From Clostridia bacterium (GTDB lineage: Bacteria > Bacillota > Clostridia > Oscillospirales > CAG-272), in contig JAFTNJ010000013.1 in assembly GCA_017451915.1 (NCBI GenBank), positions 1 to 38,683 of the forward strand: 38,683 nt of DNA. Reading direction: 5' to 3'. The first letter of the stretch is position 1. Every line of letters begins with the position of its first letter. The position numbers and the translations under genes are program-made. The notes under the pieces are model-generated. The model did no database searches and was not told where the DNA came from. It worked only from the letters and a program-made list of their open reading frames with translations. Positions 18,796 to 35,408 of this stretch are shown piece after piece.

Positions 18796-18886
18796 CACTT
18801 TTTTTCAATTTTTGAGCAAAAAAGCCCCAAAAATGAGAATTTGGCGGCCTTTGTCCCCCTTCTCCGTCCTTACGGACACTTTTTTC

Positions 18887-18915
18887 TTGACATTTCCGGG
18901 GTTCTTGGCTATAAT
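18887..18915 (+). promoter_or_regulatory. Consensus promoter for the lone EEP gene
   Basis: TTGACA (18887-18892), 17-base spacer, TATAAT (18910-18915): a perfect match to the housekeeping consensus, 37 bases before the start codon. Confidence 0.85.
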
Positions 18916-18952
18916 AAAAGCGACCGCAAACACCCAAATGGAGGAACCCGTT

Positions 18953-20230
18953 ATGTGTCTGAATCATTTTTCCATCCTTTATTCCGCCCACTCCCCCAAC
19001 ACCGCGATCGAGCACGAGGCCGCCCATTGGCTGCGACAGGCTCTGGCAACCCGTTTTGGCTGGGAGCTGACGGTATCCACGGAGATACAAGCCCCGTCCC
19101 CCAAGATCCTTCTCGGTGCCGCCTCGGGGTTGACGCCTGCCCTGAACGAATACGCCATCCGCGTCGGAGAGGGCTCCGACCTCTCCCTCTGCGCCGGCTC
19201 GACTGCCGCCTACGACGATCTGATCACCGATCTGGTGGAAGCCCTTGAAAAAGGCGAGGAGATCACCTCCCTTTCCAAGGTCTGCCGCGACCCCAGCATG
19301 GGAAAACGCCACGGAGACCTGCGCATTCTCTTCCACAACATCTTCGGCTACGACCGCAAGCCCACCATCAACCCCCAACGGCGGTACGCATTTGAGTCGA
19401 TCCTCTACCGCGAGTACGACGCCGACATCCTCTGCCTGCAGGAATACGACGGCGGCCCCCGCAAGTACCTGGGGCCCCTCCTGACCGAACACGGCTTTAC
19501 CGAGGTTCCCGCCGACCAAATGGGATTCCCCAAAAACTGCTCCCCCATCTTCTATAACGATGCCCGGGTCAAGCTTCTGGATCACGGCTTTTATCCCTTC
19601 GTTTACAAGAGCGAGGTTTGTGAGATGGTCTGCAACAACCACGACACCAAGAATCTGACCTGGGCGGCCTTTGAGGATATCAGGACCCAAAAGAGATTCC
19701 TGGTCATCAGCGTGCATTTCTATTACAGCCCCGACGCCTCGAGCGACATGACCAACCGGGTAGAATCCAACAAGGCGCGCATGGAGAACGCCCGGGAGAT
19801 GTTCGCCTTCCTGCAAGACGTCATCTACAAAAAGAACGGCGGCGAGTTTGCGGGACTGCCCTTGTTGTGGGGCGGCGACCTGAACTGCGGATACAGCAAT
19901 AAGAAATTCCCCTCCCTCATCGAATCGGCCGGCGGAAAAATCGCCCTTGACGTGTTGGAGGAGGACTTTGGCATGAAGCACGTGCAAAAGCACGCCGCCC
20001 TCTTTGCCGACAGCATTGGTGCCTACTGCGGCTACCCCACCTATGACGAGGCGCTGGGCTACTATCCCACCTGCGGACGCCTTGACAACAAGACCTTTGA
20101 CTCCTCCATCGACCACGCCTACGTCTACGGTAAGGGTGTCACCCCCCTGACCTTTGACATCATTGACACCACCTTTGCCAAAAAGACCTCGGATCACGCC
20201 CCCATCGTGGTCGACTACCGCTTGGAATGA
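18953..20230 (+). CDS. Endonuclease/exonuclease/phosphatase family protein with N-terminal GH20b/GH67N-like domain
   Basis: A 425-residue protein with no signal peptide, so probably cytoplasmic. Residues about 1-110 (HEAAHWLRQALATRFGW, PKILLGAASGL, NEYAIRVGEG, DLVEAL) resemble the small alpha-beta domain found before GH20/GH67 catalytic domains. From about 125 an EEP fold has the metal-dependent phosphodiesterase motifs: RILFHNIFG (Asn), CLQEYDGG (Glu), VISVHFYYS (His), WGGDLNCGYS (Asp/Asn) and SDHAPIVVDY (Asp-His). The substrate may be a nucleic acid, nucleotide, phospholipid or inositol phosphate. The ATG at 18953 is chosen for GGAGG 7 bases upstream. It is divergent from the phosphate operon, and its catalytic domain family is the same as in the lipoprotein array. 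Confidence 0.85.
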   Translation: MCLNHFSILYSAHSPNTAIEHEAAHWLRQALATRFGWELTVSTEIQAPSPKILLGAASGLTPALNEYAIRVGEGSDLSLCAGSTAAYDDLITDLVEALEKGEEITSLSKVCRDPSMGKRHGDLRILFHNIFGYDRKPTINPQRRYAFESILYREYDADILCLQEYDGGPRKYLGPLLTEHGFTEVPADQMGFPKNCSPIFYNDARVKLLDHGFYPFVYKSEVCEMVCNNHDTKNLTWAAFEDIRTQKRFLVISVHFYYSPDASSDMTNRVESNKARMENAREMFAFLQDVIYKKNGGEFAGLPLLWGGDLNCGYSNKKFPSLIESAGGKIALDVLEEDFGMKHVQKHAALFADSIGAYCGYPTYDEALGYYPTCGRLDNKTFDSSIDHAYVYGKGVTPLTFDIIDTTFAKKTSDHAPIVVDYRLE

Positions 20231-21386: not shown

Positions 21387-24359
21387 ATGAAAAAGAGACT
21401 TCTTTCCCTGTTGCTGCTCACGGCAATGCTGCTTTCGGTATTTGCCGCCTGCACGACAACGACGCCTCCGACCAACGACGGCACCGGAACCCAAGGCACC
21501 GCGGGAACCGGCGACCCCACCACCGAAGCCACCACCTACGATCCCAATCACAGCTGCACCACCGCTCCCCCCGAGCCCTCCGTAACCCCCGGGGAAGCCT
21601 CGGTTTACTCCGGCACCCCCGACACCTCCTGGTACACGGGAAAGGCTACCGAGTACACCCTGACCTCGGCAGATCAGCTGGTCGGCTTCCACTCCCTGCG
21701 CAGCGATACCTGCACCTTTGAGGGCGTGACCATTAAGCTGGACTGCGACGTGATCCTCAATGAAGGCACCGCCGAGGAGATCAAGGCCAGAGGCTCGGCC
21801 AACCACGCCTGGCGCCAGCTGAACTCCGCTCATCTCTTTAAGGGAACCTTTGACGGCCAGGGCCACGTGATCAGCGGCCTCTATATGCAGCTCACCGCCT
21901 CTGCCGTGCGCGGTATGTTCGGCGGCGTGGGCGGCAACGCGGTCATCAAAAACTTCACTCTGGCAAACTCCTACTTTGGAGGTCCCTCCAAGGACAACAA
22001 GACCACCCTGGGCTCCATCGCCGCCAAGATCTCTGGCGAGGGTGCCAACGTCACCATTGAAAACGTGATCTCCTACGCCGTTCTTGAAGAGGGCGAGGCC
22101 ACCTTTGCCCGTGTGGGCGGTCTGGTGGGCATGGTGACCGAGGGCGTGACCCTGACCATGAAGAACTGTGAATTCCACGGCAGTGTGACCATCTCCGGCA
22201 ACTACGCCGGGGGTATGATCGGTATGGCAAGCCATGTGGAGGCCACCGTGATTTTGAACAACTGTAAGAACACCGGTGCCATTACCGCCGCATCCAACGC
22301 CGGCGGCATGATGGGCATCTGCTCGGTCAAGTCCATGGATCTGACCGGCTGTACCAATACCGGCACCATCAAGGCGGACTCCGGTTCCGGAGATCTGGTG
22401 GGAGTTCAGGCAGTCCTTGCCGACCCCAACAACGGTGCCCGTCCCGCCACTCCCGCGGGAACCACCGCTCTGCGCGTGATGAGCTTTAACATTCAAACGG
22501 CTCTGACCGCCTCCAACGGCGTGCTCACCGACGCCGCGCGGAACCGCATAGAGGCGGTTCGCCAGGAAATCCTTTTCTACGATCCCGATATGTTCGGCCT
22601 GCAGGAGGATAGCCTGGTTTGGCACTCCAACCTCAACCTTACCGACTACAACCGCATTCTCGATACCACCATTGGCGGCACGGAAATGTGCGCCATCTAT
22701 TACAAGAAGGGTCTGCCGTTGCTGGATAGCGGCTCGCTCTGGATCACCAACACGGGAATTGGCAGTGGTGTGGGTCTGACCGTGGCCGACCTCACCACCC
22801 CCGGCAGCAAATACAAGCTCTCCGACGCCGACCTGGCCGAGCTTGGCATTACCGCCTCCTCCCCCAACTCGGTGCTCACCGAGACTCGCAAGTACGGCGA
22901 CACCAGCTACACGTTGTTGGGCAACCGCAAGATGACCTGGGGCGTGTTTGACATCAACGGCCAGACCGTGATCTACGTCAACACCCACCTGCAGCACCGC
23001 AGCCAGACCTCGGATTACAGCACCGCCGCCATTCAAAACATCCGCAGCATGGAGCGCATCAAGTCCTTTGACCTGCTCCAGGCTCAGCTGAAGAAGCTGC
23101 AGGAGCAGTTCCCCAATTCCGTCAACTACATCACGGGTGACTTTAACGACGTGGTTGGCACCGCCATCTACAACGCCGCCACCAAGGACTACGGCTACGC
23201 CAGCGCGCACGTTTCCGCCGCCGAAAAGTACGGTGTGGACGGCTCCTGGAACAACGCCTTTGACAAGGCCGTGATGGGTGACAACTATCCCAGCGCAGCC
23301 GAGGGCACCGGTGGCTCTTACCTGGACTACTGCTTCGTTTCCGCCGGTATTGACGTGCTGAAGTTCCGCGTAGGCGCGGGCAAGGCTACCATTACCGCCG
23401 TGGACGGCTCCACCAAGACCATCTACACCTCCGACCACCTTCCCATCATCACCGACCTCTGCTTCAAGACCGATAAGACCGGCTCCCCCATCGATCCCGA
23501 TTACAAGGAGGAGCCCGACGACATAACCAAGCCCTCGGTCTACTCCGGCGTCTATGATACCTCCTGGTACACGGGAGACAAGACCGAGTATGTTCTGACC
23601 ACCGCCGACCAGCTCATGGGCATGGTCTACCTGAGAAGCGAGACCTGCACCTTTGAGGGCGTAACCATCAAGCTGGGCAGAGATATGATCATCAACGAGG
23701 GCACCTTAGAGGAGATCATCGCCCGCGGCTCGGGGAACATCGCCTGGCGCCAGCTCAACTCCTCCTATCTCTTTAAGGGTACCTTTGACGGCCAGGGACA
23801 CAGCATCTCGGGCGTTTATCTCGCGCTGACCACCACCGGAAACCGCAGTATGTTTGGCGGTGTGGGCGGCAACGCGGTGATTAAGAACTTCACTCTGGAG
23901 AATTCCTACTTCACCGGCCCCTCCGTTACCGGCAAGAACAATCTGTCCTGCCTGGTGACCAAGATCGCGGGAAGCGGTGCCAACGTCACCCTTTCCGACC
24001 TGCACATCCAGTCCACCCTCATTGCAGAGACCACGGCCTCCATGGGCAACGTCGCCGCCTTTGTGGGAATCCACGAGGCCGGTACCCTGACCATGACCAA
24101 CTGCAGCTTCCAGGGCAAGATCGACTACGTGGACGCTGCCGACGTGGGTAGCTTTATTGGTGAGATGGTGACCGGAACCACCCTCAACCTCAACAACTGC
24201 ACCAGCTCCGCCGAGCTGATCGCCAAGCGGAACTGCGGCGGTCTGATCGGATTTGTTGCCAGCGGTGCCACCGTCAACAACAACGGCTCCACCTTCACCG
24301 GCTCCATCACCTGTGCCGGTTCCAAGAGTGAGACGATCGGGAACCAAGCAGAAGCATAA
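21387..24359 (+). CDS. Array lipoprotein 1: beta-helix / EEP phosphodiesterase / beta-helix
   Basis: A 990-residue secreted lipoprotein with lipobox VFAAC (Cys22) and a Thr-rich linker. Module A (about 72-350) opens with VYSGTPDTSWYTG and FKGTFDGQGHVISGLY, then GLUG-like beta-helix turns (VGGLVGMVTEGVTLTMKNC, YAGGMIGMA). The EEP domain (about 362-690) has VMSFNIQ, GLQED, NTHLQHR, TGDFND and SDHLPI, a full set of metal-dependent phosphoesterase motifs. Module B (about 718-990) repeats the beta-helix opening. The start is ATG 21387, with AAAGGAAT upstream; a TTG one codon earlier is unlikely. It should sit on the cell surface. Nucleic acid, nucleotide or phospholipid substrates are all possible. 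Confidence 0.85.
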   Translation: MKKRLLSLLLLTAMLLSVFAACTTTTPPTNDGTGTQGTAGTGDPTTEATTYDPNHSCTTAPPEPSVTPGEASVYSGTPDTSWYTGKATEYTLTSADQLVGFHSLRSDTCTFEGVTIKLDCDVILNEGTAEEIKARGSANHAWRQLNSAHLFKGTFDGQGHVISGLYMQLTASAVRGMFGGVGGNAVIKNFTLANSYFGGPSKDNKTTLGSIAAKISGEGANVTIENVISYAVLEEGEATFARVGGLVGMVTEGVTLTMKNCEFHGSVTISGNYAGGMIGMASHVEATVILNNCKNTGAITAASNAGGMMGICSVKSMDLTGCTNTGTIKADSGSGDLVGVQAVLADPNNGARPATPAGTTALRVMSFNIQTALTASNGVLTDAARNRIEAVRQEILFYDPDMFGLQEDSLVWHSNLNLTDYNRILDTTIGGTEMCAIYYKKGLPLLDSGSLWITNTGIGSGVGLTVADLTTPGSKYKLSDADLAELGITASSPNSVLTETRKYGDTSYTLLGNRKMTWGVFDINGQTVIYVNTHLQHRSQTSDYSTAAIQNIRSMERIKSFDLLQAQLKKLQEQFPNSVNYITGDFNDVVGTAIYNAATKDYGYASAHVSAAEKYGVDGSWNNAFDKAVMGDNYPSAAEGTGGSYLDYCFVSAGIDVLKFRVGAGKATITAVDGSTKTIYTSDHLPIITDLCFKTDKTGSPIDPDYKEEPDDITKPSVYSGVYDTSWYTGDKTEYVLTTADQLMGMVYLRSETCTFEGVTIKLGRDMIINEGTLEEIIARGSGNIAWRQLNSSYLFKGTFDGQGHSISGVYLALTTTGNRSMFGGVGGNAVIKNFTLENSYFTGPSVTGKNNLSCLVTKIAGSGANVTLSDLHIQSTLIAETTASMGNVAAFVGIHEAGTLTMTNCSFQGKIDYVDAADVGSFIGEMVTGTTLNLNNCTSSAELIAKRNCGGLIGFVASGATVNNNGSTFTGSITCAGSKSETIGNQAEA

Positions 24360-24368
24360 TTTTTTCTA

Positions 24369-24394
24369 GGGACGCGGCTTTTGGGCCGCGTCCC
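24369..24394 (+). terminator. Terminator of array lipoprotein 1
   Basis: A perfect 10-bp stem (24369-24378 with 24385-24394) around TTTTGG, followed by TTTT, starting 10 bases after the stop codon. Confidence 0.88.
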
Positions 24395-24464
24395 TTTTGG
24401 TTTAGAAAACCAATCAGAATCCGGAAAAAAAGTTTATATTTTTTGTGCTTTTTACACACTCTCC

Positions 24465-24493
24465 TTGACTTTTCGACGTCTCGTATGTATAAT
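24465..24493 (+). promoter_or_regulatory. Promoter of array lipoprotein 2
   Basis: TTGACT (24465-24470), 17 bases, TATAAT (24488-24493), about 68 bases before the start codon. Confidence 0.8.
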
Positions 24494-24560
24494 ATAGACA
24501 AATCTCCGCAGTGAAACGGCACAGAGAAACTTCTATGTGTTCAAGAAAGGAAAAATAACC

Positions 24561-27500
24561 ATGAAAAAAAGAATGCTTGCGTTGCTTCTGGCGGCCTTGA
24601 TGTTGCTTTCGCTCCTGGCAGCCTGCAAACCCAACCCCTCGGGTGGGGACGTCACCACCGATCCCGGAACCGGCACCACCGCATCCGTGATCATCACTAC
24701 CGAGGAGGGAGAAAAGCCCATCGATCCCCCCTCCTATGACATCGATCCCAACGCCTCGGTCTACTCCGGCACCCCCGATACCTCCTGGTACACGGGTGAC
24801 AAGACCGAATATATTCTCACCTCTGCCGATCAGCTGGTGGGCATGAACACCCTCCGCACCTCCTCCGCGGGCAGCATCACCTTTGAGGGCGTTACCATTA
24901 AGCTGGATTGCGACGTGCTGATCAATGAGGGCACTGCCGACGAGATCATGGCGCGCGGATACGCCAACAAGATCTGGCAGGTTCCCTCCCACTCCAAGTA
25001 TCTCTTCAAGGGCACTCTGGACGGCCAGGGACACACGGTCTCGGGCGTTTACATTCCCATGGAGAACTCGGGCATCTCGGGGATGTTCGGCAGTCTTGCG
25101 GGCAATGCCGAGATCAAAAACCTGAACGTCGTCAACAGTTGTCTCATCGCCGCGCCCGTGGCCGACAAGCAGATCCTTGGCTGTCTTTCGGGCAGAATCC
25201 TTGAGAGCGACTCCGACGTAAAAATCTCCAACGTGCTGATCAATTTTAACTTTGGCGAGGAAGGGTACGCCGTAAACCGTGTGGGCGGCTTCTTTGGCGA
25301 CGTTTGCTCCGGCGCAAAGCTGACCATGGAAAACTGCGAATACTACGGCAACCTCAACATCACCGGTGAATATGCCGGCGGTCTGATCGGCTACGTTTCC
25401 AACCGTAACATGAATCTTTCCTTTATCAACTGTAAGGTTGGCGGCAATATCACCGCCAACGAATACGCAGGCGGCTTCTTTGGTGCCTACACCGCAAATT
25501 CTCTCACTCTGACGGATTGCTCCTCCAACGCCAACGTAAAGGCAACCTCCCACGTTGGCGGCATTGCGGGCTGCTGTGTGACCGATACCTATTCCGAAAA
25601 GGGCCTTGCCTGTACCGCGAAGGTGGAGGGCAAGGAATTTGTGGGGGACATCATGGGCTTTAGCACCGTGATCACCGATCCCACGGGCGGCGCGCGTCCT
25701 GCCACCACTCCCGAGGGCACCACGCAGATCCGTGTTATGAGCTTCAACCTGCGTCTCAATCTTCCCGAAACCTCGGGCGGAATTGCCAACGTCAAGGCAC
25801 ACCGTCTTGCGGCCGCCAAGGCAGAGATCGAGTATTACGATCCCGATATCCTGGGCGTACAGGAGGATACCTACGCATGGAATACCGGTCTGATTCTAAA
25901 CGATTACAACATCATCATGGGATCCGACTACAAGAACGAAAACACCGAGCGCACCGCCATCTATTACAAGAAGGGCCTGACCCTTCTGGAGGGCGGCAAC
26001 GTATGGCTGACCGCTTCGGGCAAGGAAAGCGGCGCGGCACTGACGGTGGCCGACCTCTTTGAAAAGGGCGGAAAATACGAAATGTCCGAGGAGCTTCTTG
26101 CAAAGCTGGGCATCACCAAGGATTCCCCCGATTCGGTTCTCAAGGACAAACACTACACCTACGTTGACAAGAACGGCGTGACCCAAACCCATGAGGGCGG
26201 TTATGTGATCATGGATACCCGTAATGCGGTTTGGGGCGTGTTCGACATCAACGGACAGATCGTGATTCACGTCAACACCCACCTCCAGCACAGAGGCCAG
26301 GACAGCGTTTACAGCAACGATGCCCTGCAGGAGATCCGCAATCTGGAGCGTGTGAAGGAATTTTCCTATATTCAGGAGCTTCTTCAGGAGCTGAAAAAGA
26401 AGTATCCCGATGCCCAGATTGTTATGACGGGCGACTGGAACGATCACCCCATGTCCGATATTTACAACGCGGTGGTTGGCGCGGGCTACATCTGCTCCAA
26501 CTTCACGGCAGAAACCCGCGTAGGTCCTCACTGCTCCTGGAACCAAGCCTTTAACGGTGACAAGCACGGACACAACTATCCCAGCCAGTACGAGGGCACC
26601 GGCACCACTTATCTTGACTACATCTTTGTAACCGATGGCATCTCTACTCTCAAATTCGCGTCGGGCAGAGGGAAGGCGACCATCACCGACGAGAACGGAA
26701 AAGATCTCACCATCTACACCTCCGATCACCTCCCCATCATCGCCGACATCTGCTTTAAGACCGAAAAGACCGGTTCTCCCATCGATCCCGACTACAAGGA
26801 GGAAGAGGACGATCTTTCCAAGCCCTCCTATTTTACGGGACGTCAGGACATCTCCTGGTACACCGGCGACAAGACCGAGTATGTTCTCACCACCGCCGAC
26901 CAGCTGGCGGGACTCATGGCACTCAGAATCAACTCCAAGGGCACTACCACCTTTGAGGGCGTCACCATTAAGCTGGGCAGAGACATGATCTTCAACGAGG
27001 GCGACCTCTCCCAAGGTGCCACACACATCTGGCCCACCATCCACTCCTCCTATCTCTTCAAGGGCACCTTTGACGGACAGGGACACACCGTCAGCGGCAT
27101 CTATATGCCTTATGAGGATTCGGGTGTCAAGGGAATGTTCGGAGGCGTTGGCGGCAACGCGGTCTTCAAGGATCTCAAGCTTGAAAACTTCTATTACAGC
27201 GCGCCTCCCAAGGATAAGGGAATCACCGGCGCACTCATCGCCAAGGTTTCCGGCGGCGGCAACGTGACGATCTCCAACGTCACCGTTGACGGCTACGCCT
27301 GCGAGAACAGCAACTATTCCTACTACTGCGTTGGCGGTATCGTGGGGTGGATTGAAAGCAGCAGCACCCTGACCATGGAGAACTGCACCTTCAACGGTAA
27401 GATCAACTTCCCCACCCAAGGCACCGAGATCGGCGGCTTGGTTGGCACCGTCAAGAAAGGCTGTACGCTGAATTTGAAGGATTGCGTAAACAACGGCGAG

Positions 27501-27647
27501 CTGATCGGTAAGGATTACGTAGGCGGCCTGGTAGGCAGCGTACTGTCCGGCGGCCAGCTCAATGTGGAAAACAGCCAAAACAAGGGCACCATCACCGTCA
27601 CGGGAACCCATCAGGACGACGTGGTGGGCAAGGACCAGCGTTCCTGA
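24561..27647 (+). CDS. Array lipoprotein 2: beta-helix / EEP phosphodiesterase / beta-helix
   Basis: A 1028-residue paralogue, the longest of the four. Lipobox LLAAC (Cys22). Module A (about 67-375) has VYSGTPDTSWYTG; its FKGTLDGQGHTVSGVY differs by Leu from the others. The EEP domain (about 390-725) keeps VMSFNLRL, GVQED, NTHLQHR, TGDWNDH and SDHLPI, and contains an extra HEGGYVIMDTRNAVWG strand shared with lipoprotein 3. Module B (about 756-1028) begins YFTGRQDISWYTG and ends in ENSQNKGTITV. The ATG at 24561 has AAGAAAGGA upstream. The first coding part after the lipobox is identical over 68 bases to that of lipoprotein 3. Confidence 0.85.
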   Translation: MKKRMLALLLAALMLLSLLAACKPNPSGGDVTTDPGTGTTASVIITTEEGEKPIDPPSYDIDPNASVYSGTPDTSWYTGDKTEYILTSADQLVGMNTLRTSSAGSITFEGVTIKLDCDVLINEGTADEIMARGYANKIWQVPSHSKYLFKGTLDGQGHTVSGVYIPMENSGISGMFGSLAGNAEIKNLNVVNSCLIAAPVADKQILGCLSGRILESDSDVKISNVLINFNFGEEGYAVNRVGGFFGDVCSGAKLTMENCEYYGNLNITGEYAGGLIGYVSNRNMNLSFINCKVGGNITANEYAGGFFGAYTANSLTLTDCSSNANVKATSHVGGIAGCCVTDTYSEKGLACTAKVEGKEFVGDIMGFSTVITDPTGGARPATTPEGTTQIRVMSFNLRLNLPETSGGIANVKAHRLAAAKAEIEYYDPDILGVQEDTYAWNTGLILNDYNIIMGSDYKNENTERTAIYYKKGLTLLEGGNVWLTASGKESGAALTVADLFEKGGKYEMSEELLAKLGITKDSPDSVLKDKHYTYVDKNGVTQTHEGGYVIMDTRNAVWGVFDINGQIVIHVNTHLQHRGQDSVYSNDALQEIRNLERVKEFSYIQELLQELKKKYPDAQIVMTGDWNDHPMSDIYNAVVGAGYICSNFTAETRVGPHCSWNQAFNGDKHGHNYPSQYEGTGTTYLDYIFVTDGISTLKFASGRGKATITDENGKDLTIYTSDHLPIIADICFKTEKTGSPIDPDYKEEEDDLSKPSYFTGRQDISWYTGDKTEYVLTTADQLAGLMALRINSKGTTTFEGVTIKLGRDMIFNEGDLSQGATHIWPTIHSSYLFKGTFDGQGHTVSGIYMPYEDSGVKGMFGGVGGNAVFKDLKLENFYYSAPPKDKGITGALIAKVSGGGNVTISNVTVDGYACENSNYSYYCVGGIVGWIESSSTLTMENCTFNGKINFPTQGTEIGGLVGTVKKGCTLNLKDCVNNGELIGKDYVGGLVGSVLSGGQLNVENSQNKGTITVTGTHQDDVVGKDQRS
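24615..24682 (+). repeat. 68-bp exact direct repeat, copy 1
   Basis: Bases 24615-24682, covering the lipobox end and Pro/Thr linker of lipoprotein 2, are identical to 27905-27972 in lipoprotein 3, including third codon positions. Confidence 0.9.
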
Positions 27648-27661
27648 GCACTCAAAATCAT

Positions 27662-27702
27662 CCGGGGTGCCCCAAATGCATTTTTGCATTGGGGCACCCC
27701 GG
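27662..27702 (+). terminator. Terminator of array lipoprotein 2
   Basis: A long stem: CCGGGGTGCCCC (27662-27673) plus TGCA pairs with 27685-27702, with one bulged A, followed by TGTTTTTTG. It is 14 bases after the stop codon. Confidence 0.88.
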
Positions 27703-27775
27703 TGTTTTTTGTTTTGCACAAAAATTGCTTTCTTTTGCAATATTCTGTTCCTCAAAAAAAATTTACAAAATCCCA

Positions 27776-27804
27776 TTCCTTTCCCACCTTTCCTATGGTA
27801 TAAT
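27776..27804 (+). promoter_or_regulatory. Promoter of array lipoprotein 3
   Basis: Extended -10 TGGTATAAT (TATAAT 27799-27804) with a weak -35 TTCCTT (27776-27781) at 17 bases. Confidence 0.65.
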
Positions 27805-27850
27805 TGCACCAAGGGGGCCCTGCCCCACTACGAAGAAAGGAACCCAATTT

Positions 27851-30778
27851 ATGAAAACAAAGCTTCTTGCCTGCCTGCTGGCGACCCTGATGCTACTGCC
27901 CCTGCTGGCAGCCTGCAAACCCAACCCCTCGGGTGGGGACGTCACCACCGATCCCGGAACCGGCACCACCGCGCCCGTGATCATCACCACCGAGGAGGGG
28001 GCCAAGCCCATGGATCCTCCCTCCTACGACATCGACCCCAATGCCTCTGTCTACTCCGGCACCCCCGATACCTCCTGGTACACCGGGGACAAGACCGAAT
28101 ATATTCTCACCTCTGCCGACCAGCTCGTCGGCTTCCACTCCCTGCGCAGCGAGACCTTCAATTATGAGGGCATCACCGTGAAGCTGGATTGCGACGTGAT
28201 CATCAATCCCGGCACCGCCGAGGAGGTCAAGGCCAGGGCCTCCGGGAACCATTCCTGGAAGGAGCTCAACTCCAGTTACCTGTTCAAGGGCACCTTTGAC
28301 GGCCAGGGACACATCATCTCCGGCGTGTATATGCAGCTGGGCGGCTCCGGCGTCAAGGGAATGTTTGGCGGTGTGGGCGGCAACGCCGTGCTGAAGAACT
28401 TTACCCTGATCAACTCCTACTTTGGCGGCCCCAGTGCCACCGGCAAGCACTCCATGGGTGCCATTGCCGCAAAGGTTGCGGGCGAGGGAGCGAACGTCAC
28501 CTTCTCGGGCGTGAACGTCAACGCCATTCTGGAGGAGGGCTCTGCCCAGTTCAGCCGTGTGGGCGGTCTGATCGGTCAGGTTTCCGAGAACGTGACCCTG
28601 ACCCTGGAGAACTGTCAGTTTGACGGCTCGATCTCGATCACCGGAAGCTACGCCGGCGGTATGATCGGCTACGCCAGCGCGCTGGAGCTGACGGTTCATA
28701 TGACGGGCTGTGCCAACCGCGGAAACATCTCTGCCACCACCTATGCCGGCGGTATGACCGGCGTTCTGGTTCCCGCCTACGCAACCCAGACCAACTGTCA
28801 AAACCTCGGCGTAATCACCGCGGAGCATGACGCCGGTGACCTCAACGGCCGTATCTCCATGATGAAGGATCCCACCAACGGAGCCCGTCCCACCGCTCCC
28901 GAGGGCACCACGGCGCTGCGCGTAATGAGCTTTAACGTGCAAGCCTCCCTGCCCAAGGAAAACGGACAGCTGACGCAGGCGTCGCAAAACCGCATTGAAG
29001 CCGTAAAGCAGGAGATCCTGTTCTACAGCCCCGACCTGCTGGGTCTGCAGGAGGACAGCGAAACCTGGGTCACCCAGCTCCGTCTGGCCGACTATAACAT
29101 CCTCCACGACGGCACCGCCTCCTCCAGCGGCGAGCGCTGCGCCATCTTCTACAAAAAAGGCCTCAAGCTCCTCTCCAGCGGCACCGCTTGGTTGACCGCC
29201 ACCCGCACGGGTGAGGGCGCGGGCCTGACCTATGAGGATCTTTCCACCCCCGGAAGCAAGTACTACATGACGCCCGAGGAGTTGGCCATCATCGGCGTTT
29301 CCTCGACGGCAGACCTCAAGGCCAAAAAGACCACCTACGTGGATCAAACCACCGGCAAGACCGTGACCATGGAAAGCGGATCCTACGTTCTTTTGGACAC
29401 CCGCAAGGTTACCTATGGTGTCTTTGACATCAACGGCCAGACCGTGATCTACATGAACACCCACCTCCAGCACCGCAAGCCCAACGCCGAATACAGCAAC
29501 GACGCCTTCCAAAAGGTGCGCAGTATGGAGCGTTTGAAGGAATTCGACCTGATGCAGGAGACCCTGGCAGAGGTCAAAAAGACCTATCCCGACGCGCTGG
29601 TCTTTATGACGGGCGACTGGAACGACCTCCCCTACACCGCTATCTACGAGAGCATTGTTACCGACTACGGCTACGTTTGCACCAACTTTGACACGCTGCA
29701 AAAATACGGCGTCAACGGCTCCTGGAACAATGCCTTCAATCTGGAAAAGCAGGGCGACAACTACCCCAGCAAGAGCGAGGGCACCTCGGGCTCCTATCTG
29801 GACTACTGCTTCGTTTCTCCCGAGATCGACACCCTGAAGTTCCGCGTAGGTGCGGGCAAGGCCGAGATTACTCTGAACGACGGAAGCAAGAAGACCATCT
29901 ACACCTCCGACCACCTTCCCATCATCGCTGACATCTGCTTCAAGACCCCCAAGACCGGCTCTCCCATTGATCCCGACTACCAGGATCCCACCGTGGACCC
30001 CACCGTCTATTCGGGCATTGCCGACATGACCTGGTACACCGGGGACAAGACCGAGTATATTCTCACCTCGGCCGATCAGCTCATGGGCTTCCAGGCATTG
30101 CGCGCACAGCAGATCTCCTTTGAGGGTGTAACCATCAAGCTGGGCTGCGACGTAACCATCAACCAAGGCACCGCCGAGGAGATCCGGGCACGCGGCACCA
30201 ACAACTATGACTGGGCACAGCTCAACTCCTCCTACTTCTTTAAGGGCACCTTTGACGGCCAGGGACACACCATCTCCGGCCTCTATATGCAGCTGACCAC
30301 CGCCGCCGTGCGCGGAATGTTCGGTGGCGTCAGCGGTAACGCGGTCATCAAGAATTTCACCCTGGAGAATTCTTACTTCGGCGGCCCCTCCGCCAACAAG
30401 CAGGTTCTTGGAACCTTGGTAGCTAAGGTATCCTCCGGCGCAAACGTAACCATCTCCAACGTCACCGTCAACAGCCTGATGCAAGAGGGTGACGGAACCC
30501 TCTACTACATTGGCGGTCTGGTTGGCAACGTGGAAGCGGGATGTACCCTGACCCTGGAGAACTGCGAATACAAGGGCGCCATCCAATTCCCCGCCAAGGG
30601 AACCAAGATTGGCGGACTTGTGGGCGCGGTACAGGCAGGTGCTACCCTGAACCTGAACGGCTGTCGCTTCAGCGGCTCCATTCAAGCTCTTTCCGAGGCG
30701 GAAACCCTGGTGGGCTACGTCACCGCAGACTCGGTGGTAAACAATAACGGAAGTACCTCCACGGGAACCCTTTCTTAA
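27851..30778 (+). CDS. Array lipoprotein 3: beta-helix / EEP phosphodiesterase / beta-helix
   Basis: A 975-residue lipoprotein with lipobox LLAAC (Cys22). Module A (about 67-345): VYSGTPDTSWYTG, FKGTFDGQGHIISGVY, GGVGGNAVLKNFTL, and GLUG-like turns VGGLIGQVSENVTLTLENC and YAGGMIGYAS. EEP domain (about 356-690): VMSFNVQ, GLQED, NTHLQHR, TGDWNDLP and SDHLPI, all intact. Module B (about 718-975): VYSGIADMTWYTG, FKGTFDGQGHTISGLY, IGGLVGNVEAG. The ATG at 27851 has GAAAGGA about 12 bases upstream. It has its own promoter and terminator. The N-terminal linker shares exact sequence with lipoprotein 2; the rest has diverged. Confidence 0.85.
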   Translation: MKTKLLACLLATLMLLPLLAACKPNPSGGDVTTDPGTGTTAPVIITTEEGAKPMDPPSYDIDPNASVYSGTPDTSWYTGDKTEYILTSADQLVGFHSLRSETFNYEGITVKLDCDVIINPGTAEEVKARASGNHSWKELNSSYLFKGTFDGQGHIISGVYMQLGGSGVKGMFGGVGGNAVLKNFTLINSYFGGPSATGKHSMGAIAAKVAGEGANVTFSGVNVNAILEEGSAQFSRVGGLIGQVSENVTLTLENCQFDGSISITGSYAGGMIGYASALELTVHMTGCANRGNISATTYAGGMTGVLVPAYATQTNCQNLGVITAEHDAGDLNGRISMMKDPTNGARPTAPEGTTALRVMSFNVQASLPKENGQLTQASQNRIEAVKQEILFYSPDLLGLQEDSETWVTQLRLADYNILHDGTASSSGERCAIFYKKGLKLLSSGTAWLTATRTGEGAGLTYEDLSTPGSKYYMTPEELAIIGVSSTADLKAKKTTYVDQTTGKTVTMESGSYVLLDTRKVTYGVFDINGQTVIYMNTHLQHRKPNAEYSNDAFQKVRSMERLKEFDLMQETLAEVKKTYPDALVFMTGDWNDLPYTAIYESIVTDYGYVCTNFDTLQKYGVNGSWNNAFNLEKQGDNYPSKSEGTSGSYLDYCFVSPEIDTLKFRVGAGKAEITLNDGSKKTIYTSDHLPIIADICFKTPKTGSPIDPDYQDPTVDPTVYSGIADMTWYTGDKTEYILTSADQLMGFQALRAQQISFEGVTIKLGCDVTINQGTAEEIRARGTNNYDWAQLNSSYFFKGTFDGQGHTISGLYMQLTTAAVRGMFGGVSGNAVIKNFTLENSYFGGPSANKQVLGTLVAKVSSGANVTISNVTVNSLMQEGDGTLYYIGGLVGNVEAGCTLTLENCEYKGAIQFPAKGTKIGGLVGAVQAGATLNLNGCRFSGSIQALSEAETLVGYVTADSVVNNNGSTSTGTLS
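27905..27972 (+). repeat. 68-bp exact direct repeat, copy 2
   Basis: Identical to 24615-24682; see that entry. Confidence 0.9.
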
Positions 30779-30799
30779 CTCCGTCCAAATATTTTTTGA

Positions 30800-30824
30800 G
30801 GGCGTTGCAATCCTTGCAACGCCC
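30800..30824 (+). terminator. Terminator of array lipoprotein 3
   Basis: GGGCGTTGCAA (30800-30810) pairs perfectly with TTGCAACGCCC (30814-30824) around TCC, followed by TTTCCTTTTCC. Confidence 0.88.
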
Positions 30825-30829
30825 TTTCC

Positions 30830-30867
30830 TTTTCCAAGAATGTAAGAAATCGCTACGTTCTTGGAAA
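30830..30867. repeat. Second inverted repeat upstream of array lipoprotein 4
   Basis: TTTTCCAAGAA near 30830 and TTCTTGGAAAA ending at 30867 form an inverted repeat separated by about 16 bases. It lies between the terminator of lipoprotein 3 and the promoter of lipoprotein 4, and could be an operator or a second terminator arm. Confidence 0.55.
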
Positions 30868-30935
30868 ATCCGTTTAGATTTTCAATCAATTTTGAAGAAA
30901 TCCACGAAAAGGAGAAAAAAATCAACAAAAAAATC

Positions 30936-30964
30936 TTGCAATCCACCAAGATTTGTAGTAAAAT
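30936..30964 (+). promoter_or_regulatory. Promoter of array lipoprotein 4
   Basis: TTGCAA (30936-30941), 17 bases, TAAAAT (30959-30964), about 53 bases before the start codon. Confidence 0.75.
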
Positions 30965-31016
30965 GGTAATACCTTCGATCCCCTCAGGGGGAAATCTCTT
31001 GAAAGGAAGCGATCCT

Positions 31017-33944
31017 ATGAAACGAATTCTTGCCCTTCTTTTGGTATCCGTGATGCTCCTTGCCTCCCTGGCAGCCTGCAACGGAGATTCCTCCGGAAAC
31101 AACGGTACCACTTCGCCCCCCGAGGTTGAGGTTGATCCCAACTCCTCGGTTTACGGCGGAACCCCCGACACCTCTTGGTATACCGGTGACAAGTCCGAAT
31201 ATATTCTCACCACCGCCGCACAGCTGTACGGCTTCCAGGAGCTGCGCAGCAGCACCTGCACCTTTGAGGGTGTTACCATTAAGCTGGGAGCCGATATCGT
31301 TCTCAACCCCGGCTCCATTGAGGAGATCAAGGCCGCCGCAACCAAGCACGAGTGGCGGATCCTGACCCCCGATCAGCCCTTCCGCGGTACCTTTGACGGC
31401 CAGGGACATACCGTTTCGGGTCTTTACCTGCAGCTCAAGGATACCGGCGTGGCCTCCATGTTCGGTGTTGCCGCAGGCAATGCAACCATCACCAACTTCA
31501 AGTTAGTCAACAGCTACTTTGGCGGCCCCAACGCGGCCGACCAAACCACGCTGGCCGCCATCGTTTCCCAGATCACCGAGGACGATGCCAACGTTACCAT
31601 CTCCTTTGTATCGGTACACGCCGAGATTACCGAAACCTCCAAGCCCTTCAGCAAGGCCGCCGGCTTTGTAGGCTATATATCCGGAGCCGGTACCCTCTCT
31701 ATGACCAACTGTGAGTTCGACGGCCTGATCAAGGTTTCCGGCACCCACGTTGGCGGTCTGGTAGCACACATTGACAGTGCCAAGGCAGTAATAAACATTG
31801 GTAGCTGCTCTAACTTTGGCGATCTGACCGCCTCCCGCTACTGCGGCGGTATTATTGGACAGACCAAATCCCAGAGCCAAAAGGTCAACGACTGCATCAG
31901 CCGCGGCGAGCTGACCTGTGACCTGGACAGCGGACGTCTCTACGGCGAAAAGATCGACCTGTACGATCCCAACGAGGGCGCACGTCCCGAGACCCCCGAG
32001 GGCAAGACCGCTCTGCGCGTGATGTCCTTTAACGTTCAGGGCTCCCTTTCCACCAGCGGTGGCTCCCTGACCGATGCGGCACTCAACCGTGTGGAAGCGG
32101 TAAAGCAGGAGATTCTTGCCCACAACCCCGACCTTCTGGGTCTGCAGGAGGACCGCGAGGCCTGGCTCATTCATTTGAACCTGGAAGACTATAACATCAT
32201 TCAATACAGCTCGGGTCTTTCCGCCGGTGCCGAGCGTTGTGCCATCTACTACAAGAAGGGACTGACACTTCTGGAGAGCGGTATGAAGTATCTGACTCCC
32301 GAATCCCGCTACGGTGAGGGCTCGGCGCTGACCATGGAGGACATTACCACCCAGGGCAGCCGCTACTACCTGACCCCCGAGGAGCTGGAGATCCTGGACA
32401 TTCATCCTGCCGAGGGCGACGCCTCGATCTACGGCAAGAAATACCAGTACGTGGATAAGGACTCCGGCGAGGTGAAGCCCTACACCGCCGGCTACACCTA
32501 CACCACCCTGCGCAAAATGACCTACGGCGTGTTTGACATCAACGGCCAGACCGTGATCTACATCAACACCCACCTCAACCACAGAGCCCAGAACTCGGAA
32601 TACAGCAACCCCACCTACCTTAAGATCCGCAGCTTTGAGCGTGTAAAGGAATTCTACTACATGCAGCAGACCCTTGCCGAGCTCCTGAAGAAATACCCCA
32701 ACTCTCCCGTATTCATGACGGGTGACTGGAACGACGGCATTGACTCCGAGATCTACACGGTAGTAACCAAGGAGGCCGGCTTCCGCAGCTCCCACACCTG
32801 CACCGACGACGTGATCGGTTACTTTGGCACCTGGAACAACGCCTTTGATCTGGATGTTCAGGGCGACTGCTACCCCTCCTCCAAGGAAGGCCCCTCCGGT
32901 GGATATCTGGACTACTGCTTCATCTCTCCCGAGATCGACGTTCTCCGCTTTATCTACGGTGAGGGCAAGGCAAAGATCACGGCCGTAGACGGAACCCGAA
33001 AGTTCATTTACACCTCCGACCACCGCCCCATTATCGCAGATATCTGCTTTGACACTCCCAGAACCGGCTCCCCCATTGATCCCAACTACAAGGAACCCAC
33101 GGAGGATTTTTCCAAGCCCTCCACCTACTCGGGCATTCCCGACACCGCCTGGTACACGGGAGACAAGACCGAGTACACCCTGATCAATGCCGATCAGTTT
33201 GTGGGTATGCTGCTCCTGCGGCAAAACTCCTCGGGATCCCTCACCTTTGAGGGCGTGACCATTAAGCTGGCACGCGACCTGATCTTTAACGAGGGTACCG
33301 TTGCGGAATTCCTGAAGGTCGGCAACCCCACCGAGATCCAGGCCCTCAACTCCAATTATCAGTTCAAGGGCACCTTTGACGGCCAGGGACACACCATTCA
33401 CGGCATCTACATGCAGTGCACCTCCGCTGCCGTGAAGGGACTGTTCGGAGGACTGGGTGATAACGCCGTGATCAAGAACCTCACTCTGGAGGAATGCTAC
33501 GCCGGCGGCGCAAGCTCCAGCGGCAAGAACACGCTGGCTATCCTGGCGGCTCGCATTTCGGGCACCAACGTTCTCTTCTCCAACATCAAGATCGTAAACG
33601 CGCAGATCCAGGAAGGCACTGCCACCATGTACGCCTACGGCGCATTGGCAGGACGTTTGGACACCTCGGCGTCTTTGACCATTGAGAACTGCGAGGTTTC
33701 GGGCACCATCAACGCCCCCAACTGCTCCAAGATCGGTAGCTTGGTTGGTTACGCCTTTACCGGCTCCAGCCTGACCATTAAGAACAGCTCCAGTAGTATG
33801 AGCATTACCGCCAAGAACGAAGCAGGCGGCCTGGTAGGTTATATTTCCGATAACGTCACTCTGACGGTGACCAACGGAACCTTTACCGGCAGCATTACCT
33901 GCCCCGGCTCCAAGGGCGATATTTGCAGCAACTGGAACCCTTAA
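31017..33944 (+). CDS. Array lipoprotein 4: beta-helix / EEP phosphodiesterase / beta-helix
   Basis: A 975-residue lipoprotein with lipobox SLAAC (Cys21) and a short linker. Module A (about 45-320): VYGGTPDTSWYTG, FRGTFDGQGHTVSGLY, GLUG-like AAGFVGYISGAGTLSMTNC and VGGLVAHID. EEP domain (about 333-680): VMSFNVQ, GLQED, INTHLNHR, TGDWNDG and SDHRPI. The Gln-to-Asn and Leu-to-Arg changes next to catalytic positions make it the most divergent EEP of the four. Module B (about 702-975): TYSGIPDTAWYTG, FKGTFDGQGHTIHGIY, IGSLVGYAFTGSSLTI. The ATG at 31017 has GAAAGGA about 9 bases upstream. It is the last EEP-bearing gene of the array. Confidence 0.85.
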   Translation: MKRILALLLVSVMLLASLAACNGDSSGNNGTTSPPEVEVDPNSSVYGGTPDTSWYTGDKSEYILTTAAQLYGFQELRSSTCTFEGVTIKLGADIVLNPGSIEEIKAAATKHEWRILTPDQPFRGTFDGQGHTVSGLYLQLKDTGVASMFGVAAGNATITNFKLVNSYFGGPNAADQTTLAAIVSQITEDDANVTISFVSVHAEITETSKPFSKAAGFVGYISGAGTLSMTNCEFDGLIKVSGTHVGGLVAHIDSAKAVINIGSCSNFGDLTASRYCGGIIGQTKSQSQKVNDCISRGELTCDLDSGRLYGEKIDLYDPNEGARPETPEGKTALRVMSFNVQGSLSTSGGSLTDAALNRVEAVKQEILAHNPDLLGLQEDREAWLIHLNLEDYNIIQYSSGLSAGAERCAIYYKKGLTLLESGMKYLTPESRYGEGSALTMEDITTQGSRYYLTPEELEILDIHPAEGDASIYGKKYQYVDKDSGEVKPYTAGYTYTTLRKMTYGVFDINGQTVIYINTHLNHRAQNSEYSNPTYLKIRSFERVKEFYYMQQTLAELLKKYPNSPVFMTGDWNDGIDSEIYTVVTKEAGFRSSHTCTDDVIGYFGTWNNAFDLDVQGDCYPSSKEGPSGGYLDYCFISPEIDVLRFIYGEGKAKITAVDGTRKFIYTSDHRPIIADICFDTPRTGSPIDPNYKEPTEDFSKPSTYSGIPDTAWYTGDKTEYTLINADQFVGMLLLRQNSSGSLTFEGVTIKLARDLIFNEGTVAEFLKVGNPTEIQALNSNYQFKGTFDGQGHTIHGIYMQCTSAAVKGLFGGLGDNAVIKNLTLEECYAGGASSSGKNTLAILAARISGTNVLFSNIKIVNAQIQEGTATMYAYGALAGRLDTSASLTIENCEVSGTINAPNCSKIGSLVGYAFTGSSLTIKNSSSSMSITAKNEAGGLVGYISDNVTLTVTNGTFTGSITCPGSKGDICSNWNP

Positions 33945-34124: not shown

Positions 34125-35408
34125 ATGAGAGCACACAAACACCTGCCGCGCCTGCTCTGCCTGGCGCTTACCCTTCTCCTCTTATTTGCCGCCGCGGCCT
34201 GCCAAAGTCAAGGCGTCGCCCCCGTAGGGACGTCCCATAGCACGCAGACCGCCGTGGGAGGCACTCCCGAGCCCACCACCCACCGCACCACCGGTTACGA
34301 GGATTGTATTCCTACCACCACCCCCACCGAGGAGGTCACCGAGGCGCCCTATCAACAGCTGAACATTACCGCCACCGCCGGCACCAACTATACCCTTTCC
34401 AATCAGTTGCCCGCGTACTTTTTGAGATTAAGCCAATTCCTGCAAATCGAACCTATGGATTTTCGAGAGAGTGACATTGGCGTTAATTGGCTGGAGAATG
34501 CAAACAACATTATGCAATGTTTTTTGCTCAGCAAGGATTTCACCCGTGATAACCCTACCCCCGATGAAAAGAAGATCCTGAGCTATGAATTTGAGATCCC
34601 ACAGGACAGTCACTATGATTTCTGCTTTGAGATCAAGGCGCTGCCCTCGGGCTCGGTGGTGTTCCAAATTGATGATGGAGAAAAGCAACAGATCGACTAT
34701 GCCATCTCCGAGAGCGAGCTGGAGCAGGTTCGGGATTCCTCCAACAGCACCTATCTGTCCGGAGTTCGTGTCCACCTCACCAAGGGAAAACACGTGATCA
34801 AATTCACCCTGGCCCCCAACAGCAATCAAACCTTCTGGTTCCGTCATATTTTCCTCGTATCCAATCCTGAAGTTTACATCGGTCCGGGAGAGACTCACTT
34901 TGATTGGAACCACACCCCCTCCCTTCCCACAGCCTTTGCACGGGATGACGTCCTTCTTTTGAAGGGAAACGAGCACCTGGAAAGCGATCTTGGCGTCCTC
35001 CCCGGGGAGGCCTTTGGCATTCCTCACTACACCCTGGACCTGCAGGAGGTCAAAGATAGCAACGGCAATGTGATCCCGAATATCGAAAAGCATCTGACTT
35101 GGAACGTCACAATTCCCGCGGACGGGATCTACCATGTCCTCTTTGAGCTCTATTTGGAGAGCGGCGACTTGACCGGTTGCGTGATCCAGATCGACGACGG
35201 CGAGAAGACCTCTATGGACTATCACTTTGATGAGAACGCCTTGGCCGCCGTGCGCAACGAAAGTCACGGCACCTACATGAGCGGCTACGAAGCCTATCTC
35301 ACCGCCGGTGAGCATCGCATCCAATTTACCTACGCCCAGGAATGCTCCACGACCTTCCGTTTCCGCAATCTCTATCTGGTGCCAAGCACCGAGACGGACA
35401 ATCCCTAA
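34125..35408 (+). CDS. Array lipoprotein 5: two carbohydrate-binding-like beta-sandwich modules
   Basis: A 427-residue secreted lipoprotein with lipobox AAAAC (Cys26) and a Thr/Pro linker. Two copies of a roughly 160-residue module follow (about 82-245 and 265-427). Both show a strand like F-E-I-P-x-D-x-x-Y-D-F / T-I-P-A-D-G-I-Y-H-V, then FQIDDGEKQQIDY / VIQIDDGEKTSMDY, a T-Y-L/M-S-G step, YLTAGEHRIQFTY and F-W/R-F-R-x-x-x-L-V. The pattern is that of CBM6/35-like jelly rolls; ligand unknown. Module 2 is much closer to the first module of lipoprotein 6 than to module 1. No EEP or beta-helix part is present. GAAAGGAG lies about 8 bases before the ATG. Confidence 0.78.
   Translation: MRAHKHLPRLLCLALTLLLLFAAAACQSQGVAPVGTSHSTQTAVGGTPEPTTHRTTGYEDCIPTTTPTEEVTEAPYQQLNITATAGTNYTLSNQLPAYFLRLSQFLQIEPMDFRESDIGVNWLENANNIMQCFLLSKDFTRDNPTPDEKKILSYEFEIPQDSHYDFCFEIKALPSGSVVFQIDDGEKQQIDYAISESELEQVRDSSNSTYLSGVRVHLTKGKHVIKFTLAPNSNQTFWFRHIFLVSNPEVYIGPGETHFDWNHTPSLPTAFARDDVLLLKGNEHLESDLGVLPGEAFGIPHYTLDLQEVKDSNGNVIPNIEKHLTWNVTIPADGIYHVLFELYLESGDLTGCVIQIDDGEKTSMDYHFDENALAAVRNESHGTYMSGYEAYLTAGEHRIQFTYAQECSTTFRFRNLYLVPSTETDNP

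Follow-up and report, generated by a model that had tools for sequence, protein, structure and literature searches.

Four tandem genes of a Clostridia bacterium encode predicted lipoproteins in which an EEP phosphoesterase domain is held between two glycine-rich repeat modules. We tentatively favor a role for these proteins as surface EEP phosphoesterases that act on phosphorylated glycans and whose modules bind glycan or wall, a reading to which we give somewhat less than an even chance and whose substrate we infer.

Organization of the four-gene cluster

The cluster occupies positions 21387..33944 of the window, the whole stretch of 38,683 nt that was analyzed. As the initial annotation had described, four tandem paralogues of 975-1028 aa are present there. 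Four plus-strand ORFs of 990, 1028, 975 and 975 aa (copies 1-4, from ATGs chosen in the analysis) each encode a lipoprotein-type signal, module A, the EEP domain and module B, in that order (4/4). Copies were defined by ORF, Pfam and module profile, copy 1 also by a structural model, and modules by the module profile.

16990..18051, minus strand: Pit-type phosphate transporter (PF01384, 177 bits)
18064..18714, minus strand: PhoU_div (DUF47) protein (PF01865, 91.2 bits)
18812..20230, plus strand: further EEP-like protein (PF03372, 22.3 against 24.5, just below cut-off; start codon approximate)
21387..24359, plus strand: copy 1, A-EEP-B lipoprotein, 990 aa (AAGAAAGGAA upstream of the ATG)
21621..22466, plus strand: module A of copy 1 (mostly beta in the model)
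22467..23465, plus strand: EEP domain of copy 1 (PF03372, 35.3 bits; fold matches 3mpr and 4c1r)
23556..24356, plus strand: module B of copy 1 (mostly beta in the model)
24368..24395, plus strand: terminator-like hairpin 3' of copy 1
24561..27647, plus strand: copy 2, A-EEP-B lipoprotein, 1028 aa
24777..25724, plus strand: module A of copy 2
25725..26756, plus strand: EEP domain of copy 2 (PF03372, 41.9 bits; groups with the C2, G001 and G017 copies)
26847..27644, plus strand: module B of copy 2
27686..27705, plus strand: terminator-like hairpin 3' of copy 2
27851..30778, plus strand: copy 3, A-EEP-B lipoprotein, 975 aa
28067..28912, plus strand: module A of copy 3
28913..29941, plus strand: EEP domain of copy 3 (PF03372, 33.9 bits)
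30023..30775, plus strand: module B of copy 3
30798..30826, plus strand: terminator-like hairpin 3' of copy 3
31017..33944, plus strand: copy 4, A-EEP-B lipoprotein, 975 aa
31167..32009, plus strand: module A of copy 4
32010..33050, plus strand: EEP domain of copy 4 (PF03372, 41.5 bits)
33141..33941, plus strand: module B of copy 4
34125..35408, plus strand: lipoprotein-like protein, 427 aa (50% over 187 residues to the N-terminal part of the next protein)
35638..38412, plus strand: lipoprotein-like protein, 924 aa, with one related module at 36451-37281 (module profile)

Motif inspection identified the lipobox as LAAC in copies 2-4 and FAAC in copy 1, which refines the lipobox previously assigned to each protein. 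This cysteine (Cys22) was invariant in an alignment of 10 rows, and the four proteins are probably lipoproteins exposed at the cell surface, as predicted from their signals. Promoter-like sites precede copies 1, 2 and 4, and hairpins follow copies 1-3. The copies look like separate transcription units, which argues against an operon linking them to Pit. The upstream regions had no common exact motif (6-8-mers) besides A-tracts and promoter-like hexamers, leaving control by phosphate unsupported.

The motifs WYTG and DGQGH each occur twice per protein, once on the N-terminal and once on the C-terminal side of the enzyme (4/4). The proposal that the module openings are repeated around the enzyme therefore stands for these motifs, but the longer openings quoted for it vary slightly among copies. 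Within a single protein, modules A and B were 52, 42, 53 and 34% identical (copies 1-4) over about 250 residues, values that are far beyond chance for sequences of this length. A profile of the eight window modules returned two matches per protein (i-E 3e-112 or better), as expected by construction. In a full-length AlphaFold2 model of copy 1 (mean pLDDT 82.7), an alpha/beta EEP core lies between two mostly-beta modules, each with two short helices near its start and with ten-residue blocks at pLDDT 70-98; at the level of secondary structure, the predicted flanking of the EEP core by two mostly-beta repeat modules was borne out for this copy.

The modules carry GGxxG and NC repeats at a spacing of about 30 residues, a glycine-rich pattern shared with GLUG-motif proteins. 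PF07581 (GLUG) remained below its cut-off of 20.5 in copy 2 (14.5 bits, E 0.049) and copy 4 (11.4 bits, E 0.49) and gave no match at E 1 in copies 1 and 3. Membership of the modules in the Pfam Glug family was dropped because the cut-off was reached in 0/4 proteins. A single PDB chain reached E <= 0.001 with a profile of 14 modules: 3n6z (E 4.8e-5, with 0.0011 for its best single stretch), titled "putative immunoglobulin A1 protease".

By analogy, the modules may bind glycan or the cell wall. The surface enzyme ChiW of Paenibacillus, a Gram-positive multi-domain protein with CBM54, is a precedent: its right-handed beta-helix binds polysaccharides of the wall (PMC5132251). ChiW differs in being a chitinase with two GH18 domains, S-layer-type domains and one beta-helix on one side (PMC5132251); the window proteins hold an EEP domain between two modules.

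On sequence grounds, the module-bearing set extends beyond the four copies to the 35638-38412 protein, whose module was the sister of copy 4 module B in the tree. PF01105 (GOLD) scored above cut-off before this module and GH115_C below cut-off after it. Also encoded in the same genome are an SNase homologue with lipoprotein-like features (L025) and three module proteins (L024) whose metallo-beta-lactamase-like domain, which we take to be ComEC-like, scored below the Pfam cut-off.

The EEP domain and its nearest relatives

PF03372 exceeded its cut-off of 24.5 bits in all four copies, and the motifs MSFN, QED, NTHL, GD[FW]ND, LDY and TSDH each occurred once per protein (4/4), in agreement with the intact EEP motifs reported earlier. 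Among a wider set, 17/17 EEP rows matched PF03372 at E <= 0.01, and N8, E47, H174, D225, N227, D287, D323 and H324, presumably the catalytic residues, were invariant in all 17. Placement of the central domain in the EEP superfamily was agreed by Pfam, PDB profile and fold search.

The best PDB profile matches were 3g6s, 4c1r and 3mpr, each at about 1e-11, and the same three chains led the fold matches of the copy 1 model (3mpr 5e-16, 4c1r 1e-13, 3g6s 1e-12; target TM 0.77). The group that includes BT3783, the mannosyl-6-phosphatase of Bacteroides thetaiotaomicron (4c1r), is therefore the best match by both profile and fold, and its members share the EEP fold and motif set with the window proteins. 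Their solved chains, however, comprise 261-298 residues without flanking modules, whereas the window proteins have two. A second tier of profile and fold matches with the common EEP fold, below these Bacteroides proteins, contained PDE12, nocturnin, CCR4/CNOT6L and TDP2 (TDP2, CNOT6L and nocturnin at about 1e-9 by fold). These are eukaryotic enzymes that work inside the cell, with RNA, NADP(H) or protein-DNA adducts as substrates. Among the best 50 of 433 fold matches, all of which concern the EEP part of the model, 49 were EEP enzymes by title or by the identity of the named enzyme, and 3l1w bore no functional title.

DNase I was not named among the 18 profile matches or these best 50 fold matches, and a DNase I-like nuclease was dropped as first choice. 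Sphingomyelinases, which belong to the EEP superfamily, were likewise absent from the best 50 of 433 fold matches and gave weak profile matches (1zwx, E 0.025; 7cne, E 0.19) compared with about 1e-11 for the Bacteroides group. Identity to solved EEP proteins was about 20% in the fold search, which is too low for transfer of a substrate. Relative to seven other EEP domains of the genus, those of the window carry an insert ahead of the RxMTYGVF strand, roughly 35-60 residues long by visual count, and the stretch leading up to LDY is also longer.

Distribution and gene neighborhoods

The A-EEP-B order was found in 8 proteins. In the tree, A modules formed one group and B modules another with moderate support, which suggests that the A-EEP-B order is ancestral. 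The EEP subfamily was rare, occurring in 3/35 genomes of the genus, the source genome among them, and in one Lachnospiraceae genome. Relatives of the source bacterium live in animal guts. In a contig scan, 472 stretches matched, 273 encoded relatives and 79 loci were kept; by profile search 5/79 contained the EEP domain and 3/79 the A-EEP-B order, two of these three being, as judged from length and gene coordinates, contigs already known in G001 and G017. Modules only were encoded by 90 of the 100 ORFs with a profile match in these loci. In line with the earlier remark that no characterized protein with this order is known, a literature search, including passages of PMC7825182, PMC9213526 and PMC5132251, yielded no description of the architecture. 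The word GLUG was absent from the literature found.

At related loci, gene order was examined around the EEP subfamily. On G017:C29, a glycyl radical enzyme activase is followed by EEP lipoprotein(s), a type I phosphodiesterase and a GH38 alpha-mannosidase; G001:C92 has this order plus an interposed opposite-strand AraC-type gene, and the short contig G000:C2 has EEP and phosphodiesterase. GH38 genes lie near two relatives of the window proteins, a possible parallel to BT3783. On G040:C119, GH3 adjoins EEP. A glycosidase gene was found beside the EEP subfamily at 3/11 loci outside the window, two called by Pfam and G001:C92 by 68% identity to the G017 GH38, a count that rests on annotation of all loci but G001:C50, G001:C68 and G040:C182 and, at five of those annotated, on Pfam scans of a minority of the neighbors. 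Glycoside hydrolases were detected in 0/16 window proteins scanned by Pfam. GH38 occurred at 2/11 loci outside the window and in 0/16 window proteins, in a search that left GH76, GH92, GH99 and GH125 outside its scope.

Other neighbors were more varied. The EEP gene of G040:C21 lies among ABC importer parts, a GDSL hydrolase, DUF6259 and an AraC-type regulator, neighbors on G000:C34 resemble lysine biosynthesis genes by eye, and one EEP cluster (L027) adjoins a glycosyltransferase. The glycyl radical enzyme of related loci has a GCWE motif, which we take to mark an eliminase, and an iron alcohol dehydrogenase-like gene was also annotated. Type I phosphodiesterase was present at E <= 1e-20 in 12/60 genomes and stood without the EEP subfamily in six other stretches, and was set aside as a non-specific marker of EEP loci. 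The 2-aminoethylphosphonate genes PhnW and PhnX adjoin one related locus; being on the opposite strand and convergent to the EEP gene, they were dropped as partners.

Candidate substrates and proposed biological role

Glycans of fungi, protozoa and bacteria can be shielded from glycosidases by phosphate caps. Under the favored reading, the EEP core, a predicted divalent-metal phosphoesterase, would act outside the cell and remove or split phosphate groups of a phosphorylated glycan, which might be phosphomannan or a different phosphate-capped oligosaccharide, while the two beta modules would keep the enzyme attached to the polymer or the wall. Once dephosphorylated, the glycan would become accessible both to glycosidases, GH38 among them, and to sugar transporters; freed phosphate could be taken up by Pit. 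This scheme predicts surface exposure, metal use, a glycan substrate, ligands for the modules and uptake of phosphate.

The initial annotation had proposed a surface nuclease or phosphodiesterase. An EEP phosphoesterase with a lipoprotein-type signal was retained, but the nuclease was less supported, the nearest profiles and folds being Bacteroides EEP proteins including BT3783. We consider it unlikely that the core is an extracellular nuclease that breaks down DNA or RNA to obtain nucleotides and phosphate: the nearest fold group contains a sugar phosphatase, DNase I is missing from the matches examined, and glycosidases are neighbors at three loci, although the EEP nucleases TDP2 and CNOT6L, with PDE12, occupy the next tier, the SNase homologue and the three L024 proteins are encoded in the same genome, and the Pit neighbor fits phosphate scavenging. 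Such scavenging by a broad surface phosphomonoesterase/diesterase feeding Pit, with no particular glycan, has a low probability. Pit, PhoU_div and the further EEP-like gene are all found in the 5 kb that precede the cluster, and the presence of several divergent copies could point to more than one substrate; however, copies 1, 2 and 4 have promoter-like sites of their own, no exact upstream motif other than A-tracts and promoter-like hexamers is common to the copies, and Pit and PhoU_div had no tblastn match in the other loci searched (G040 stretches L128-L131 were outside this search).

Lower still we place a phospholipase C/sphingomyelinase-like enzyme that releases head groups, the product being processed by the type I phosphodiesterase and glycyl radical enzyme. 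A product that is a small polyol or amine would fit the GCWE enzyme and the iron alcohol dehydrogenase-like gene, and both the sphingomyelinase profile matches and the PhnW/PhnX locus could be read this way, but those matches score far below the Bacteroides group, the Phn genes are convergent to EEP, and GH38 would have no obvious place. It is very unlikely that the proteins act on polymers of the cell's own wall or capsule, such as teichoic-acid-like phosphodiesters, rather than on food, since their patchy presence within the genus speaks against a housekeeping function in the wall; the points in favor of this reading are lipoprotein-type anchoring, which would place the enzymes beside the wall, and the glycosyltransferase adjoining the L027 cluster.

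Because the EEP domain most resembles an enzyme that removes phosphate from sugar chains, the four proteins may contribute to the bacterium's nutrition from glycans that carry phosphate. A more specific proposal, which we regard as doubtful, is that they represent a distinct modular EEP branch in gut Clostridia, comprising surface phosphoglycan esterases between two paralogous beta-helices, with tandem copies each for a different phosphorylated glycan and the active-site insert as specificity element. If so, the Bacteroides mannosyl-6-phosphatase would have a Gram-positive counterpart in this branch, with a possible link to a glycyl radical eliminase fermenting the released polyol. If the proteins do remove phosphate caps outside a Gram-positive cell, they would fill in a first step that has been missing from the route by which gut Clostridia break down phosphoglycans, the glycine-rich beta modules would serve as a holder on both sides of the enzyme, and the four paralogues would provide a ready set for comparison of substrate specificity.

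Four tandem lipoproteins and their surroundings

The source genome comprises 2.2 Mb in 79 contigs with an estimated completeness of 87%, and the window is one entire contig of these, 38,683 bases long. From 21387 to 33944 its plus strand carries four consecutive genes, each encoding a protein that begins with a lipoprotein-type signal with a terminal Cys.

21387-24359, plus strand: copy 1, 990 aa, signal box FAAC; the reference protein
24561-27647, plus strand: copy 2, 1028 aa, LAAC, 49% identical to copy 1
27851-30778, plus strand: copy 3, 975 aa, LAAC, 58% identical to copy 1
31017-33944, plus strand: copy 4, 975 aa, LAAC, 50% identical to copy 1

In every copy the signal is followed by a repeat module (module A), an EEP phosphoesterase domain and a second repeat module (module B). 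PF03372 was matched above its Pfam cut-off in all four; per protein, each enzyme motif occurs once and the module marks WYTG and DGQGH occur twice. All component parts are of known kinds, and no description of the two-sided module order or of the tandem set was found among the open-licence papers searched, most subscription papers lying outside this search.

Sigma-70-like sites were present 5' of copies 1, 2 and 4, TATAAT was also found 5' of copy 3, and terminator-like hairpins lie 3' of copies 1, 2 and 3. Because the scan gave 14 promoter-like sites versus 8.7 (sd 2.6) in shuffles and terminators were not enriched (15 versus 20.6, sd 5.4), these signals only suggest that the copies may be transcribed as single-gene units. 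No common control motif stood out upstream of the copies.

Upstream in the window are the phosphate transporter Pit, the PhoU-like protein PhoU_div and another EEP-like protein; downstream are two further lipoprotein-like genes, one with a related module.

18812-20230: EEP-like protein transcribed divergently from PhoU_div and Pit; its N-terminal part does not resemble the modules
35638-38412: lipoprotein-like protein in which a single related module is flanked by GOLD-like and GH115_C-like (below cut-off) beta domains

The EEP domain and its flanking modules

Alignment of 17 EEP rows, 4 from the window and 13 from other loci, demonstrated that the catalytic residues are invariant; all 17 rows matched PF03372. 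When a profile of these rows was compared with the PDB, 18 distinct sequences were recovered at E <= 1. The best matches were 3g6s, 4c1r (a mannosyl-6-phosphatase) and 3mpr, each at about 1e-11, followed by PDE12 (3e-10), 3l1w and nocturnin (about 2e-7), CCR4 (9e-6) and TDP2 (3e-4). An AlphaFold2 model of full-length copy 1, built from a 10-row alignment, had a mean pLDDT of 82.7, and yielded 204 Foldseek matches in the PDB at E <= 0.001. The top six were four chains of 3mpr together with 4c1r and 3g6s (target TM 0.76-0.77). Next in rank come 3l1w, TDP2, CNOT6L and nocturnin; DNase I is absent from the best 50 matches listed. When set beside seven other EEP proteins of the genus, including one from the window, members of this EEP branch show roughly 35-60 additional residues (by-eye count) inserted N-terminal to the RxMTYGVF strand, and the segment preceding LDY is also longer. 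Both are candidates for shaping the pocket.

In the copy 1 model, strands follow one another regularly at residues ~154-343 and ~799-987. Each module also has two short helices close to its start. With a pTM of 0.63, the mutual placing of the domains is not fixed in the model. Pfam Glug remained below its cut-off in the window copies, and a 14-row module profile matched a single PDB chain at E <= 0.001, 3n6z (E 4.8e-5), which we take to be a beta-helix.

Distribution, history and gene neighbourhoods

Eight proteins were found with the A-EEP-B order. Five belong to the source genome (G000), four of them encoded in the window and the fifth on a different contig; the others come singly from three relatives (G017, G001 and the Lachnospiraceae genome G040). 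At E <= 1e-25 the EEP subfamily was detected in 3 of 35 genus genomes, own genome counted, and in none of the nine with completeness of at least 90%. Among genomes sampled from larger groups, it was detected only in the own genome (391 from the class; 196 from the family, at 1e-40) and only in G040 (299 from the family of G040). Modules without EEP accounted for 90 of the 100 open frames with a match across 79 kept loci; the module is thus much commoner than its pairing with EEP. This rare, patchy pattern fits gene transfer.

In a maximum-likelihood tree of 22 modules, the nine A modules clustered together with support 87/82, as did eleven B or B-like modules with 88/86; both values lie under the tool's mark for firm support. 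Modules of G000:C34 and G001:C50 fell outside both groups, the latter on a long branch. Since A modules group together and B modules group together, the A-EEP-B order most likely has a single origin that predates the divergence of the copies; proteins with EEP-B or A-EEP alone appear to have lost a module afterwards. Copy 2 joined the G000:C2, G001 and G017 copies in the EEP tree (98/97); those of G040 formed a separate group (100/98). The module of the window protein at 35638-38412 was sister to copy 4 module B.

Gene orders at loci outside the window were as follows.

G017:C29: glycyl radical enzyme, activase, two EEP lipoproteins, type I phosphodiesterase (PF01663), GH38
G001:C92: glycyl radical enzyme end, activase, EEP lipoprotein, phosphodiesterase, AraC-type gene (other strand), GH38 (sharing 68% identity with the G017 one), iron alcohol dehydrogenase-like gene
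G000:C2 (short contig): EEP and phosphodiesterase
G040:C21: ABC importer parts, GDSL hydrolase, DUF6259, AraC-type regulator
G040:C119: GH3

By contrast, at 8 of the 11 loci outside the window no glycosidase was confirmed, which indicates neither presence nor absence (three are unannotated, and at the others Pfam covered only a minority of the neighbours). Further features were observed at these and related loci.

G000:C34, 2098-14480, minus strand: a tandem trio of module proteins, each of ~1350 aa and with a C-terminal metallo-beta-lactamase-like domain (under the Pfam cut-off), presumably ComEC-like
G017:C157, 1438-9425: four EEP genes in tandem, all from this subfamily, with no module detected
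G000:C46, 2408-5492: lipoprotein-like SNase homologue (PF00565); an adjoining protein shares 65% identity over 118 residues with a portion of the 35638 window protein, and ABC-like genes (by eye) lie upstream of both
Locus L026, 1104-4125: upstream of the EEP genes, an activase and a glycyl radical enzyme that bears a GCWE motif and scores under every NCBIfam cut-off among those listed
G040:C21, 3954-10566, minus strand: genes for degrading 2-aminoethylphosphonate (PhnW and PhnX, both passing their cut-offs, and a phosphonate-binding protein); an EEP-B gene is transcribed towards them
G000:C21, 3797-11171: two proteins, each longer than 1000 aa and rich in module-like repeats, whose C-terminal stretches resemble the window proteins at 34125 and 35638

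Candidate substrates

Several activities were weighed for the copies. A nuclease appears unlikely. General phosphate scavenging is less probable again; Pit stands upstream of copy 1 and had no match in the other loci searched. A phospholipase-like enzyme, with sphingomyelinase matched by the profile at 0.025, is slightly more doubtful still, and action on the bacterium's own wall is the most improbable of these readings. Given the nearest fold relatives, the presence of alpha-mannosidase genes at two loci and the neighbouring phosphate transporter, we tentatively favor the possibility that the copies are surface phosphoesterases that may act on phosphorylated glycans as their putative substrate.
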